Source of the DNA: Pleomorphomonas carboxyditropha
Lineage (GTDB): Bacteria > Pseudomonadota > Alphaproteobacteria > Rhizobiales > Pleomorphomonadaceae
Reading direction: 5' to 3'
Assembly (NCBI RefSeq): GCF_002770725.1
Contig: NZ_NQVN01000007.1
Location: 62,001-126,000, forward strand
DNA: 64,000 bases
The translations under genes and the position numbers were made by a program. The notes below the pieces were generated by a model, which worked only from the letters and a program-made list of their open reading frames with translations, was not told the DNA's origin and did no database searches. This document shows, in pieces, positions 4,900-62,749 of the stretch. Every line of letters begins with the position of its first letter. Position 1 is the first letter of the stretch.

Positions 4900-4914
4900 T
4901 TAAACGCGCTTTAA
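4900..4914. promoter_or_regulatory. CtrA-type motif TTAA-N7-TTAA
   Basis: A full match to the alphaproteobacterial CtrA consensus (TTAA, seven bases, TTAA), set in a longer palindrome GGTTAAA-5-TTTAACC. It lies about 95 bases upstream of the aminotransferase-ftsK operon and 20 bases past the glnK stop. Regulation of the division operon by CtrA is a reasonable inference. A weak terminator-like hairpin for glnK is the alternative, but no T-run follows. Confidence 0.5.
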
Positions 4915-16044: not shown

Positions 16045-16405
16045 CGGCGGTCCCCGTCGAACGGTCGGTCGGACCGCTCATATGGTCCCGGCCGCCGCGA
16101 AACCCAAGCACCGCACGCATCCGCGGGCGCGACGCGCTGGCGGATGTTGACCTCCGGGATCGTGCCCCGGTCGGCGGCTCGGCTGTCGCAACAGGACGAG
16201 AATGGACCGCCATTAGCGGCAAGGCGGCACCGAGTCAAGGAAAACCGGGAAATCCTTCGAGGACTCCCGGGAAACGCAGCCACAGTCATCTGTTGCCGCG
16301 GCGAAATGCCGGCCGTGCCGGTCGCCGCCGGTCATGCGGCCAACCAACCACCTGTTCCCCGCAAGTCGTTTGATGTAAGACCGAGCCAACGCAAGAGGTT
16401 TGGTC
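16045..16405. other. Divergent intergenic region between ffh and dapF
   Basis: About 360 bases holding the promoters of both genes. It contains an imperfect hairpin at 16245-16270: CCGGGA paired with TCCCGG, an inner 4-bp stem, and a 3-base loop. Read on the minus strand it is followed by a TTTTCC run. A GCAAGAGG ribosome-binding site at the right end serves dapF. No protein-like frame is seen, and no 4.5S RNA core motif was recognised. Confidence 0.5.
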
Positions 16406-34148: not shown

Positions 34149-34586
34149 TCAGAACGGCTTCAGCACCACCAGCACCAGGACGGCGAACAGGATGAGGGTC
34201 GGCAGTTCGTTCATCATCCGGAAGAAGCGCGCGGCATGATGATTGGCATCCCGCTCGAAAGCCTTCCGCCAAGTGTCGAGCTGGTAGTGATAGACCGTGA
34301 GGCCAAGCACCAGAAGGAGTTTCAGCCAAAGCCAGGACGACGTGGAAAACCAGCCGCCCTTCACTCCCAGCCACAGACCGAAGCCCCAGGTGCCGTACAT
34401 GGCCGGCCGCATGATGCCTTTGAACAGCCGGCGTTCCATCACCTTGAAGGTTTCCGACTGCACCGAACCGATCTCCGAATCGGCGTGATAAACGAAAAGG
34501 CGCGGCAGATAGAAGATGCCGGCCATCCAGGCGATCACCGAGAACAGATGGCCGATCTTGATCCAATCATAGCCAAGGCCCATCAT
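34149..34586 (-). CDS. hemJ: Protoporphyrinogen oxidase HemJ
   Basis: A 145-residue inner-membrane enzyme with four transmembrane helices that oxidises protoporphyrinogen IX in bacteria lacking HemG or HemY. The motifs [26 protein letters not shown] near the start (two conserved histidines) and [27 protein letters not shown] are clear. The ATG overlaps the hemE stop by ATGA, so hemE-hemJ form a heme operon beside the origin. Confidence 0.93.
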
Positions 34587-35626
34587 CGTTCCCCAGCGCC
34601 GCGCACCCGCGCCAGCATGCGCGCCACGTTGTCGATCGAGCCATCCGGCGTAATGCCGTGACCGAGGTTGAAGATCAGCCTTCCCCCGCCCAACCGGTCG
34701 AGGATTCGATCGACGGCCGCGTCGAGCATCTCACCGCCGGCGACGAGATGCAGCGGATCGAGGTTACCCTGCACGGCGACCAGCGGCTGCACGGCGTCCC
34801 GCACGAAATCGAGCGAGGCCTGCCAATCGACGCCGACGGCATCGACGCCGGTTTCGCGCACGAAAGCCGGGAGATGACCGCCAGCCCCTTTCGGAAAGCC
34901 GATCACCCGGGCACCGGGCACCCGCGCACGGAGGCCCTCGACGATCCGTCTGGTCGGCTCGATCACCAAACGCCGGAAGCCGGCATCGTCCAGCCCGCCG
35001 GCCCAGGTATCGAAGATCTGGACCGCATCGGCGCCTGCCCGCAACTGAGCGGCAAGATATTCGATCGAAGCCTTCACAAGAATATCGACCAGCCGGTCGA
35101 CGCCACTTGGATCGACGAGGGCCGCTCGCCGCGCCGGCATCTGATCGGGCGTGCCACGGCCGGCAATCATGTAGGTAAGAAGCGTCCAGGGCGCGCCGCA
35201 GAAGCCGAGCAGCGCCGTCTCCTCGGCAAGCTCGGCACGGATGCGTGATACCGTCTCGATGACCGGCTCAAGCCGCGAGAGCAGGCGATCCGGTTCAAGG
35301 ACAGGACGAGCGGGATCGACCGGCTCGAGCCTCGGGCCCTCGCCTTCGACGAACCAGACCTTCTGGCCGAGGGCCTGCGGCACCACCAGGATATCGGAGA
35401 ACAGGATCGCCGCGTCGAAACCGAAGCGGCGGATCGGCTGCAACGTCACTTCCGTGGCGAGAGCCGGCGCGTAGCAGAGATCGAGGAAGGAACCGGCCTG
35501 GACTCTCGTCGCCCGATATTCGGGAAGGTAGCGTCCGGCCTGACGCATCATCCAGACCGGCGGCGGCCACAGCCGTTCACCGTCGAGCACCCTGACAAGG
35601 CGACGTTTCCGAGCCGCCTTGTCCAT
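34583..35626 (-). CDS. hemE: Uroporphyrinogen decarboxylase
   Basis: A 347-residue enzyme that decarboxylates uroporphyrinogen III to coproporphyrinogen III. It contains the invariant [17 protein letters not shown] with the substrate-binding arginine, [17 protein letters not shown]-like sequence, and [13 protein letters not shown]. The frame is open 39 codons further upstream, but that stretch is lysine/serine-rich and unlike the family. The ATG at 35626 gives the usual N-terminus and leaves the AT-rich segment outside the gene. hemE next to the origin is the Caulobacter and Rhizobiales arrangement. Confidence 0.95.
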
Positions 35627-35838
35627 CTTCGTCGTGGTCGCGCCGTCCGCCGTTTCCAAGTCAAGAATCCTATTTGAAGAGATTTTCTTTTTCTTATTGC
35701 CGAGGGATAGCAGGGATTGTCTCCCCTCCACAATCGGAACCATGTGAGACCTCCCCGCATGCCCGAGAGGACACCGTTCGGACCGCTGCCCTGTGGCTTT
35801 TGTGGAAAACTTTAACCGATGGCGGAACGCCGCAATTC

Positions 35839-35853
35839 TTAACGAATGGTTAA
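35839..35853. promoter_or_regulatory. CtrA-type motif TTAA-N7-TTAA in oriC, first
   Basis: TTAA at 35839-35842 and at 35850-35853, with exactly seven bases between. A half-site TTAA lies at 35812-35815. CtrA bound at such sites in Caulobacter blocks DnaA. Confidence 0.65.
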
Positions 35854-35873
35854 TGGGGATGACCGCCGAAGAG

Positions 35874-35888
35874 TTAATGAACCGTTAA
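35874..35888. promoter_or_regulatory. CtrA-type motif TTAA-N7-TTAA in oriC, second
   Basis: TTAA at 35874-35877 and at 35885-35888, with seven bases between. It is 35 bases from the first motif. The close spacing of two full sites makes chance unlikely in DNA this GC-rich. Confidence 0.65.
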
Positions 35889-36164
35889 GCGCCAGCTTCG
35901 CTTTTGCACAGCACCCACAGACGCCGCCGCGACCATGCCCATTCGCCTGCCCTGTTGATGGTCTGATGGCTTACCCACAGGGGTCGGTCCGGCGCCCGCG
36001 TCGCCGCTCTCTTTCTCCACGTTCGTCCAAGCGGCGCGTGCTCCTCTGTGGATTGTCGCTCGGCGAAAGCAGCCAAGTCATTGATCGAAATTGGCGAAAA
36101 AGAACTCGCCAAGCACGGCGCCATCTGAGATGCTGGCTCGCCGTTCTCTCGGAGCACGCCGGCC

Positions 36165-37022
36165 ATGAAGCGGGGCCAGACCTATTTCCATATCCATCTC
36201 GTCTCCGATTCCACCGGCGAGACGTTGCTCGCCGTTGGCCGGGCGGCCACCGCTCAATATGAATCGATGGTGGCGATCGAGCATATCTACCCGCTGGTCC
36301 GCTCGGTGCGGCATATCGAGCGTGTCATCGCCGATATCGAGGCGGCGCCCGGCATCGTGCTCTATACCCTGGTGCAGCAGGATCTCGCCATCCGGCTCGA
36401 GGAGGCCTGCCAGGCGGCGGCCATTCCCTGCATCGACGTCTTGCGGCCGGTGTTCGACGTGTTCCGCTCCTTTTTCAAGGTGCAGGCCATCGGCAAGGCC
36501 GGTGCCCAGCACGCCATGGACGCCGACTATTTCAAGCGCATCGACGCGCTGAACTTCACGCTGGCCCACGACGACGGTGCCCTACCCGACGACATCGAGG
36601 AAACCGACGTCATCCTGATCGGCATCAGCCGCACCTCGAAGACGCCGACCTCGATCTATCTCGCCAATCGCGGCATCCGCACCGCCAATGTGCCGCTGGT
36701 GCCCGGCATCCCGATTGCCGACAAGGTCGTCGCCGCCCGACGGCCCCTGGTCGTCTGTCTGATCGCCACCGCCGAGCGCATCATGCATGTCCGCCAGAAT
36801 CGCCTGTTGGCGTTGGCCGATCAGAACCAGAATTCGACCTATGTCGACAAGGCATCGATCGCTCAGGAGATTCTCTATTCCAAGCGCCTCTGTACCGAGC
36901 ACGGCTGGCCGATGATCGACGTCACCCGCCGGTCGATCGAGGAAACCGCTGCCGCCATTCTCGCCCTTTGGGATCAGCATCGTTACGGCAAGATGCTCGA
37001 TCCCTTTTCCGACGCCGGTTGA
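36165..37022 (+). CDS. ppsR: Pyruvate,phosphate dikinase regulatory protein (DUF299)
   Basis: A 285-residue bifunctional kinase/pyrophosphorylase that switches PEP synthase or pyruvate phosphate dikinase on and off. It opens FHIHLVSDSTGETLLAVGRAA, and the P-loop-like GISRTSKTPTSIYLANRG lies near residue 150, with the conserved SIEETAAAIL near the end. The target enzyme gene is not in the window, so PpsR or PdrP naming is interchangeable. It is the first gene to the right of the predicted oriC, as in Caulobacter, and maf follows 3 bases later. Confidence 0.92.
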   Translation: MKRGQTYFHIHLVSDSTGETLLAVGRAATAQYESMVAIEHIYPLVRSVRHIERVIADIEAAPGIVLYTLVQQDLAIRLEEACQAAAIPCIDVLRPVFDVFRSFFKVQAIGKAGAQHAMDADYFKRIDALNFTLAHDDGALPDDIEETDVILIGISRTSKTPTSIYLANRGIRTANVPLVPGIPIADKVVAARRPLVVCLIATAERIMHVRQNRLLALADQNQNSTYVDKASIAQEILYSKRLCTEHGWPMIDVTRRSIEETAAAILALWDQHRYGKMLDPFSDAG

Positions 37023-61546: not shown

Positions 61547-62749
61547 TCAGGCGGCGAGGTCGGCGACCACGGCATCGAGCACGAAGGCACCGGCCGGCGT
61601 GGTGCGGATGCGGCCATCGGGCAGCACCTCCACCATGCCGTGGGTGACCAGGTCGGAGATCCGTGCCGCGTCGAAGCGCCGGCCGGACAGCCGCTGATAG
61701 CGGGACGCGTCGATGCCTTCGACAAGGCGAAGGCCCATCAGCAGCATCTCGTCGCCGGCCATCTCGCCGAAGATTTCCTCGGTCTCGATCACGCCGTTGC
61801 CGGTCTCGGCGACACGCCGCATCCAGGCTTCCGGGTTGCGCTCGGCAATGGTGGCGAGGCGGCCGCGGTCGTCGCCGTGGACGATGCGGCCGTGGGCGCC
61901 GGGGCCGAGACCGATATATTCGCCGTAACGCCAGTAGAGGAGATTGTGCCGGCTTTCGCCGCCCGGTGTGGCGTGGTTGGAAATCTCGTAAGCCGGCAGG
62001 CCGGCCGCGCCGGTGATCGTCTGCGTCAGCTCGTAGAGATCGGCGGCGGCGTCGGCATCGGGCACCACCAGCTTGCCGGCGGCATATAGTTTCTCGAAGG
62101 CGGTGTCCGGCTCGATGGTCAGCTGGTAGAGCGACAGGTGGTCGGCGGCAAAGCCGATGGCGCGCCTGAGCTCGGCTTCCCAGGCGTCGAGGCTCTGGTC
62201 GGGACGGGCGTAGATGAGGTCGAAGGAAAGGCGCGGAAACGTCTCACGCGCCAATTCGAGCGCGCGGAGCGCCTCGTCGACGTTATGCAGCCGGCCGAGG
62301 AATTTGAGGTCCGCGTTGTTCAACGCCTGCACGCCGAGCGACAGGCGATTGACGCCGGCTGCCCGATAACCGCGGAAGCGCTCGGCTTCGACCGACGACG
62401 GATTGGCCTCCAGCGTGATCTCGGCATCGGCCGACATCTGCCAGTGATGGCCGATCAGTTCGAGGAGACGGCCGACGCTCTCCGGCTTCATCAGCGACGG
62501 CGTGCCGCCGCCCAGGAACACCGACGTCACCGTGCGGCCGGGGGTCAGGCGGGCATGGGCGGCGATCTCCCGCTCCATGGCGGCGAGATAACCGGCCTCG
62601 TCGATGCCCTTCGGCCGGACGTGGCTGTTGAAGTCGCAATAGGGACACTTGCGGGCGCAGAACGGCCAATGGACGTAGACGCCGAAACCGATGTCCGGCG
62701 TGCCCACGTCCGTCGCTGCCACGCCCGACAGGAGATCCCGTTCGCTCAT
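61547..62749 (-). CDS. hemW: Radical SAM heme chaperone HemW
   Basis: A 400-residue radical-SAM family protein. The cluster cysteines are in VHWPFCARKCPYCDFNSH, followed by SVFLGGGTPSLM and GVNRLSLGVQALN. The HemN C-terminal region (RHNLLYWRYGEYIGLGPGAHGRI) is present. HemW inserts heme into respiratory enzymes; it lacks the fourth-residue pattern of true oxygen-independent coproporphyrinogen oxidase (HemN), which has CxxxCxxCxC. Here the motif is CxxxCxxC followed by D. It is translated 4 bases after rdgB. Confidence 0.94.
   Translation of the reverse strand: MSERDLLSGVAATDVGTPDIGFGVYVHWPFCARKCPYCDFNSHVRPKGIDEAGYLAAMEREIAAHARLTPGRTVTSVFLGGGTPSLMKPESVGRLLELIGHHWQMSADAEITLEANPSSVEAERFRGYRAAGVNRLSLGVQALNNADLKFLGRLHNVDEALRALELARETFPRLSFDLIYARPDQSLDAWEAELRRAIGFAADHLSLYQLTIEPDTAFEKLYAAGKLVVPDADAAADLYELTQTITGAAGLPAYEISNHATPGGESRHNLLYWRYGEYIGLGPGAHGRIVHGDDRGRLATIAERNPEAWMRRVAETGNGVIETEEIFGEMAGDEMLLMGLRLVEGIDASRYQRLSGRRFDAARISDLVTHGMVEVLPDGRIRTTPAGAFVLDAVVADLAA

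Follow-up and report, generated by a model that had tools for sequence, protein, structure and literature searches.

Two predicted CtrA operators in the very probable chromosomal origin of Pleomorphomonas carboxyditropha, and the patchy occurrence of such sites across its order

Does CtrA act directly on replication origins outside Caulobacter? The question is raised by the intergenic gap between hemE and ppsR of Pleomorphomonas carboxyditropha, which lies in the 64,000-nucleotide stretch analyzed here (positions 62,001 to 126,000 of contig NZ_NQVN01000007.1; hereafter the window, whose own numbering is used). The window is part of an 80-contig, 5.88-Mb genome, and its contig is 207 kb long. 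The gap (35627-36164, 538 bp, without strand) is predicted to be oriC, the chromosomal origin, and contains two copies of TTAA-N7-TTAA, the CtrA consensus (PMC1914354, PMC4285127; papers are cited throughout for the portions of their text that were available). We consider it likely that the gap is the origin, that DnaA opens it, and that phosphorylated CtrA on the two operators hinders the DnaA complex. By analogy, the mechanism would most likely be that of Caulobacter, and the conserved, predicted pair of operators, in what is very probably the oriC, would be a real further instance of Caulobacter-type wiring.

Both predicted operators are exact matches on the plus strand, with starts 35 bp apart; site 1, TTAACGAATGGTTAA, lies at 35839-35853, and site 2, TTAATGAACCGTTAA, at 35874-35888. 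They are accompanied by a lone TTAA half-site at 35812-35815 (plus strand), where TTAA is present in 7 of 11 relatives. The sequence scan thereby bore out the arrangement given in a preliminary description of this DNA. Shuffling predicted 0.02 exact motifs in the window, compared with three found, the third being located at 4900-4914. When the gap sequence itself was shuffled, at least one motif arose at a frequency of 0.0013 (0.13%), and two or more in 0/20,000 rounds. Across the whole genome, 27 copies were counted, compared with 22 for a reversed control pattern, and the pattern is therefore hardly enriched genome-wide; what stands out is the presence of two motifs within one 538-bp gap. 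The genomic count speaks for the possibility that the two motifs arose by chance in a gap richer in AT. A chance origin was nevertheless rejected, and we give it hardly any probability, on the basis of the gap shuffles as well as the conservation, the order-wide enrichment, and the spacing controls described below.

Alignment of the gap among relatives showed that the motifs are kept. The close comparison comprised 11 related loci (L016-L026), of which the nearest by PpsR belong to Pleomorphomonas (95-100% identical). Site 1 is exact in 7/11, site 2 in 9/11, both in 6/11, and at least one in 10/11; the eleventh locus (L025) has CTAA-N7-TTAA at both positions, and Oryzibacter (L024) retains site 1. 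When the window was aligned with nine congeners (10 sequences, L024 and L025 omitted), 15 of the 16 TTAA columns were invariant (7/8 for site 1 and 8/8 for site 2), compared to 9/14 for the spacer columns and 255/535 for the gap as a whole. The conservation of site 1 itself weighs less, because the whole block that surrounds it is conserved.

The hemE-ppsR gap was then compared across the order. A HemE match was obtained for 147 of the 150 genomes, including that of P. carboxyditropha, and the upstream 2 kb was fetched for 140 of the 146 others (all except G043, G077, G087, G094, G116, and G139); a few of the fetched loci run into a contig end, which leaves 205 bases of L160. In 113 of the 140 loci, ppsR adjoins hemE. 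One locus, L133, was dropped, its ppsR match starting at residue 101, and the survey set consisted of 113 gaps from 39 families, window included. Surveyed gaps start at the first matched hemE residue, and may include up to about 20 hemE codons. Full motifs numbered 52, in 45 of the 113 gaps. Shuffling gave a mean of 2.0 and a maximum of 7 over 200 rounds, and spacings other than 7, within the range of 0 to 25, gave 0 to 12 motifs each; spacing 7 was the only enriched spacing in that range. The same held for the 89 gaps with a GC content of 45% or more (35 motifs at spacing 7, and no more than 7 at each of the others), and for counts by family (19/39 for spacing 7, with the other spacings reaching 7 at most). 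Hits in family f4 lie in extremely AT-rich gaps (18-25% GC) and may be due to chance; they are counted within the 45/113, and omitted from the central-position and gap-versus-rest counts. With f4 and the window omitted, 48 motifs were found in 48.5 kb of gap, compared with none in the remaining 166 kb of the same loci, which is largely coding.

L133 and the 27 loci in which ppsR does not adjoin hemE were scanned whole and kept outside the 45; full motifs were found in 10 of these 28. Four of the loci with no ppsR beside hemE (L162-L165, family f47) have two or three full motifs about 100-250 bp upstream of hemE. Degenerate remnants in gaps without a full site were also considered, and set aside, as no clear excess was seen at up to one mismatch: of the 89 gaps, 53 scored at spacing 7, 24 at spacing 6, and 19 at spacing 8. 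Gaps whose spacing-7 motifs all carry one mismatch therefore number 18, similar to the figures for spacings 6 and 8. In other orders of the class, hemE was present in 71 genomes, of which 40 loci were fetched and 34 were usable. The motif occurs in 3 of these 34 gaps (three motifs, with none or one for every other spacing from 0 to 20), and was not found in the remaining six fetched loci, indicating that the enrichment is largely a trait of the order in the sampled genomes.

One clear CtrA is encoded in the genome, 84% identical to the Caulobacter sequence, with the next long matches at 24-37%; it was named by an NCBIfam profile at 425 bits. ChpT is encoded as well, and the genome thus has both a CtrA orthologue and a phosphorelay gene. 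CtrA was detected in 148 of the 150 order genomes (E up to 1e-60, at least 79% identity, a few matches partial), and the same search gave no match in G008 and G107. Absence of CtrA was therefore rejected as the cause of site-less gaps, and the operators vary while the protein stays. The region upstream of ctrA in P. carboxyditropha (L229) contains six copies of GANTC.

The motif by itself does not tell which protein binds it, and another regulator that recognizes TTAA half-sites might occupy these sites in place of CtrA. At Caulobacter CtrA promoters, other proteins, including SciP and MucR, also act, which was counted in favor of this alternative. It is judged quite improbable, given that only spacing 7 stands out, matching the CtrA consensus, and that two further exact sites in the genome lie at flagellar and ftsE genes. 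These two were found among 15 inspected of the 25 remaining genomic copies, and represent CtrA-type targets: one lies in the divergent gap between flgB-flgC and fliO (L011, contig C11; the FliO match is weak), and the other between ftsE and a zinc-ribbon gene (L002, contig C1). Several of the remaining 13 inspected sites are inside, or distant from, likely genes. In Brucella abortus, ftsE is among the reported CtrA targets (PMC2877005).

The comparisons thus support, at the level of sequence, the proposal of the preliminary description that the gap is an oriC on which CtrA acts directly, through synteny, the enrichment of spacing 7, conservation, and the CtrA orthologue. The implied peculiarity of the lineage did not hold up, as full motifs are carried by 44 of the 112 other hemE-ppsR gaps of the order.

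The gap is very probably the start of chromosome replication. The AT-rich stretch and the DnaA-box-like sites that had been described in it were confirmed. Its best 40-bp stretches, at 35658-35698 (no strand), are 75% AT and mostly invariant in the congeners, and likely serve as the unwinding element. Two 9-mers lie within one mismatch of the DnaA box TTATCCACA (P = 0.011 from shuffling), of which no exact copy was found in the gap. The first, TGTGGAAAA (35801-35809, minus strand), is mostly invariant in the 10 sequences, and the second, TTACCCACA (35971-35979, plus strand), has a near-invariant CCCACA part. YCCACA cores number five in the gap, compared to 0.32 expected (0/1000 shuffles). Among them, TCCACA at 35727-35732 (plus strand) is inside a conserved block, and CCCACA at 35914-35919 (plus strand) and TGTGGA at 36047-36052 (minus strand) were located by a core scan and the 10-sequence alignment.

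Strand asymmetry was examined in the window and in relatives. Within the window, cumulative GC skew reaches its minimum near 38-40 kb; over the whole contig, skew and GGGNAGGG bias do not decide the position of the origin. For relatives, the 9-mer GGGCAGGGC was chosen as a likely strand-biased word. In the closed relative G041, among the matches listed (50 of 106), the 38 up to 1,516,229 are all on the minus strand, and 10 of the 12 after them are on the plus strand; with hemE at 1,490,722-1,491,735, the switch in strand bias among these matches lies 24-52 kb from the gap of that genome. In G054, a member of the same family as P. carboxyditropha, the 100 listed of 144 forward copies are all in the first 2.09 of 5.33 Mb, and hemE is at 5.06 Mb. 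In G097, 100 listed minus-strand copies are at 0.20-2.58 Mb, and hemE is at 3.11 Mb. The distributions in G054 and G097 are consistent with an origin at the gap, without being decisive, and among the matches listed for the three genomes, a switch was shown only by G041.

In the mechanism that we favor, DnaA would bind the clustered degenerate boxes and open the AT-rich stretch beside hemE, and phosphorylated CtrA would bind the two mid-origin operators, which are flanked by the DnaA-like box at 35801 on one side and by those at 35914-35979 on the other. Occupancy by phosphorylated CtrA would hinder the assembly of the DnaA complex, and degradation or dephosphorylation of CtrA would allow the origin to fire. 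The target of this hindrance may be the complex or the unwinding step, instead of overlapping binding sites. CtrA binding, competition with DnaA, and cell-cycle timing are what we infer from the sites and their surroundings.

The position of the sites bears on a transcriptional alternative, in which they would be CtrA operators of a promoter (for hemE, ppsR, or a CcnA-like small RNA), and replication would be touched at most through transcription. Such a role would suit some families with sites near a gene, such as f25 (centre 19 bp from the hemE end) and f37 (with ppsR about 108 bp away). For the window sites, the distances are about 210-260 bp to hemE and 275-325 bp to ppsR, and no sigma-70-like promoter was found at 35600-36200, by a scan blind to other promoter types; the gap has no Rfam match at gathering score. 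Across the order, the sites lean to the gap centre, with 32 of 50 in the central third and a family mean of 0.62, compared to 0.33 (f4 omitted). On this evidence, a purely transcriptional role appears unlikely. The peripheral sites of f25, most of f37, f46, and part of f42 look independent. The central sites may share an architecture, as hinted at by the sequence TGTTGA, which follows 19 of the 32 central CtrA sites (10 families) at a distance of 50-145 bp, compared with 32% of central positions in the same gaps. In the window, a TGTTGAT element is located at 35953-35959 (plus strand); it is present in 38/113 gaps and 17/39 families, and is perhaps a weak DnaA box.

Besides the conserved block around site 1, several observations weigh against direct control of the origin by CtrA. 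Full sites are absent from 68 of the 113 order gaps, although nearly all genomes of the order encode CtrA. Four other sampled genomes of the same family (G009, G141, G054, and G086, the last with ppsR not adjacent) have no full site, and the pair in the window may therefore have been gained, or retained, locally. The cumulative skew of the 207-kb contig is lowest at 183.5 kb (-1336), only slightly lower than at a local low near 100 kb (-1206). The region upstream of ctrA contains no exact TTAA-N7-TTAA, and one at one mismatch. No match to the IHF consensus (WATCAANNNNTTR, WATCANNNNNWTR, WATCANNNNTTR) was found in the gap, nor a Caulobacter G-box (TGATCCACA) within one mismatch. Lone TTAA sequences likewise lean to the gap centre (67/164). 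The CtrA sites were not found to be closely coupled to DnaA cores, the order-wide median distance being 55 bp, compared to 48 bp for random gap positions. In Caulobacter, lowered CtrA affinity at all five origin sites led to mild effects on replication in laboratory growth (PMC4468827), although the cells became very sensitive to antibiotic pulses (PMC4468827).

Among known systems, the Caulobacter crescentus origin, Cori, shares with the gap the flanking genes (hemE and COG1806), an AT-rich stretch, DnaA sites, and TTAA-N7-TTAA (PMC8959179, PMC1914354, PMC4285127, PMC4468827). Steric exclusion of DnaA was put forward as the simplest model there (PMC4468827). Cori has five CtrA sites, compared with two full sites in the window gap, and CtrA binding and repression were demonstrated for Cori and are predicted for the window gap. 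Cori also has G-boxes and an IHF site that overlaps a CtrA site, neither of which was found here, and for this reason the gap is not filed as a Cori type in the narrow sense.

Sinorhizobium meliloti belongs to a related order. CtrA couples replication and division in this species as well, but its origin was reported, in the text available, to lack both a CtrA motif and CtrA binding (PMC4433202). CtrA was likewise reported, in the portion available, not to bind the origin of Brucella abortus (PMC2877005). The contrast drawn in the preliminary description, with some Rhizobiales in which CtrA would not bind the origin directly, has its basis in these two reports. As part of a joint reading, Sinorhizobium might be an exception that arose through operator loss, with CtrA nearly unchanged, a suggestion that we hold tentatively and with somewhat less than even confidence. 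In Hyphomonas neptunium, a CtrA signal was found by chromatin immunoprecipitation sequencing at a site adjoining the origin (PMC7200025); this species is counted in the Caulobacterales (PMC8116508), and binding was measured there, whereas it is predicted for the window.

CtrA sites were predicted in the origins of several Rickettsiales in a 2007 study (PMC1914354). The predicted origins of Rickettsia and Wolbachia are likewise flanked by hemE and contain CtrA and DnaA motifs, but the genomes are distant and rich in AT, the CtrA motif was searched with a mismatch permitted, and IHF motifs were predicted (PMC1914354). According to the available text of a 2015 review, CtrA sites were not seen in origins beyond Caulobacter and possibly Rickettsia (PMC4468827), a statement with which the order survey disagrees at the level of motifs. 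No published report of CtrA sites in origins of the order was found in a search outside of which most subscription papers lay; further literature cited is PMC4414408, PMC5928217, and PMC11514494.

The operator pair, together with the 45/113 gaps, offers species in which direct and indirect control could be compared with CtrA nearly constant. The motif is widespread and patchy in the order, which makes the pair more interesting, and the survey bears on whether direct control is ancestral or arose repeatedly. When site presence was mapped on a quick PpsR tree, 19 changes were required, compared to 35.5 for shuffled labels (none of 500 as low), and well-supported branches force at least 7 changes; a supported group of 19 rows has no sites. 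These counts indicate that the sites are clustered by clade, yet changed many times, gain and loss being inseparable on this basis.

The borders of the gap agree with those in the preliminary description, as judged from open reading frames and family matches. On one side lies hemE (34583-35626, minus strand; TIGR01464, 377 bits), and on the other ppsR, encoding a kinase/pyrophosphorylase (36165-37022, plus strand; PF03618, 291 bits). A longer reading of hemE, from 35743, is unlikely. Six of the 11 relatives lack its start triplet (35741-35743), and for L018 and L023 the alignment of relatives shows single-base gaps inside the stretch, which is therefore noncoding. Also in the gap, ATAGCAGGGAT (35707-35717, plus strand) is identical in the window and in 11/11 relatives, and is a putative clade-specific origin element; TAGCAGGGAT was found in only 2/113 order gaps. 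The minus-strand open reading frames beside the gap are presumably mnmG, mnmE, rho, and a small membrane protein, followed by hemE, and those on the plus strand after ppsR are, as we take it from their translations, maf, aroE, coaE, and dnaQ. Elsewhere in the window, an ffh small RNA (Rfam RF01793, 54 bits) is located at 16114-16161 on the minus strand.
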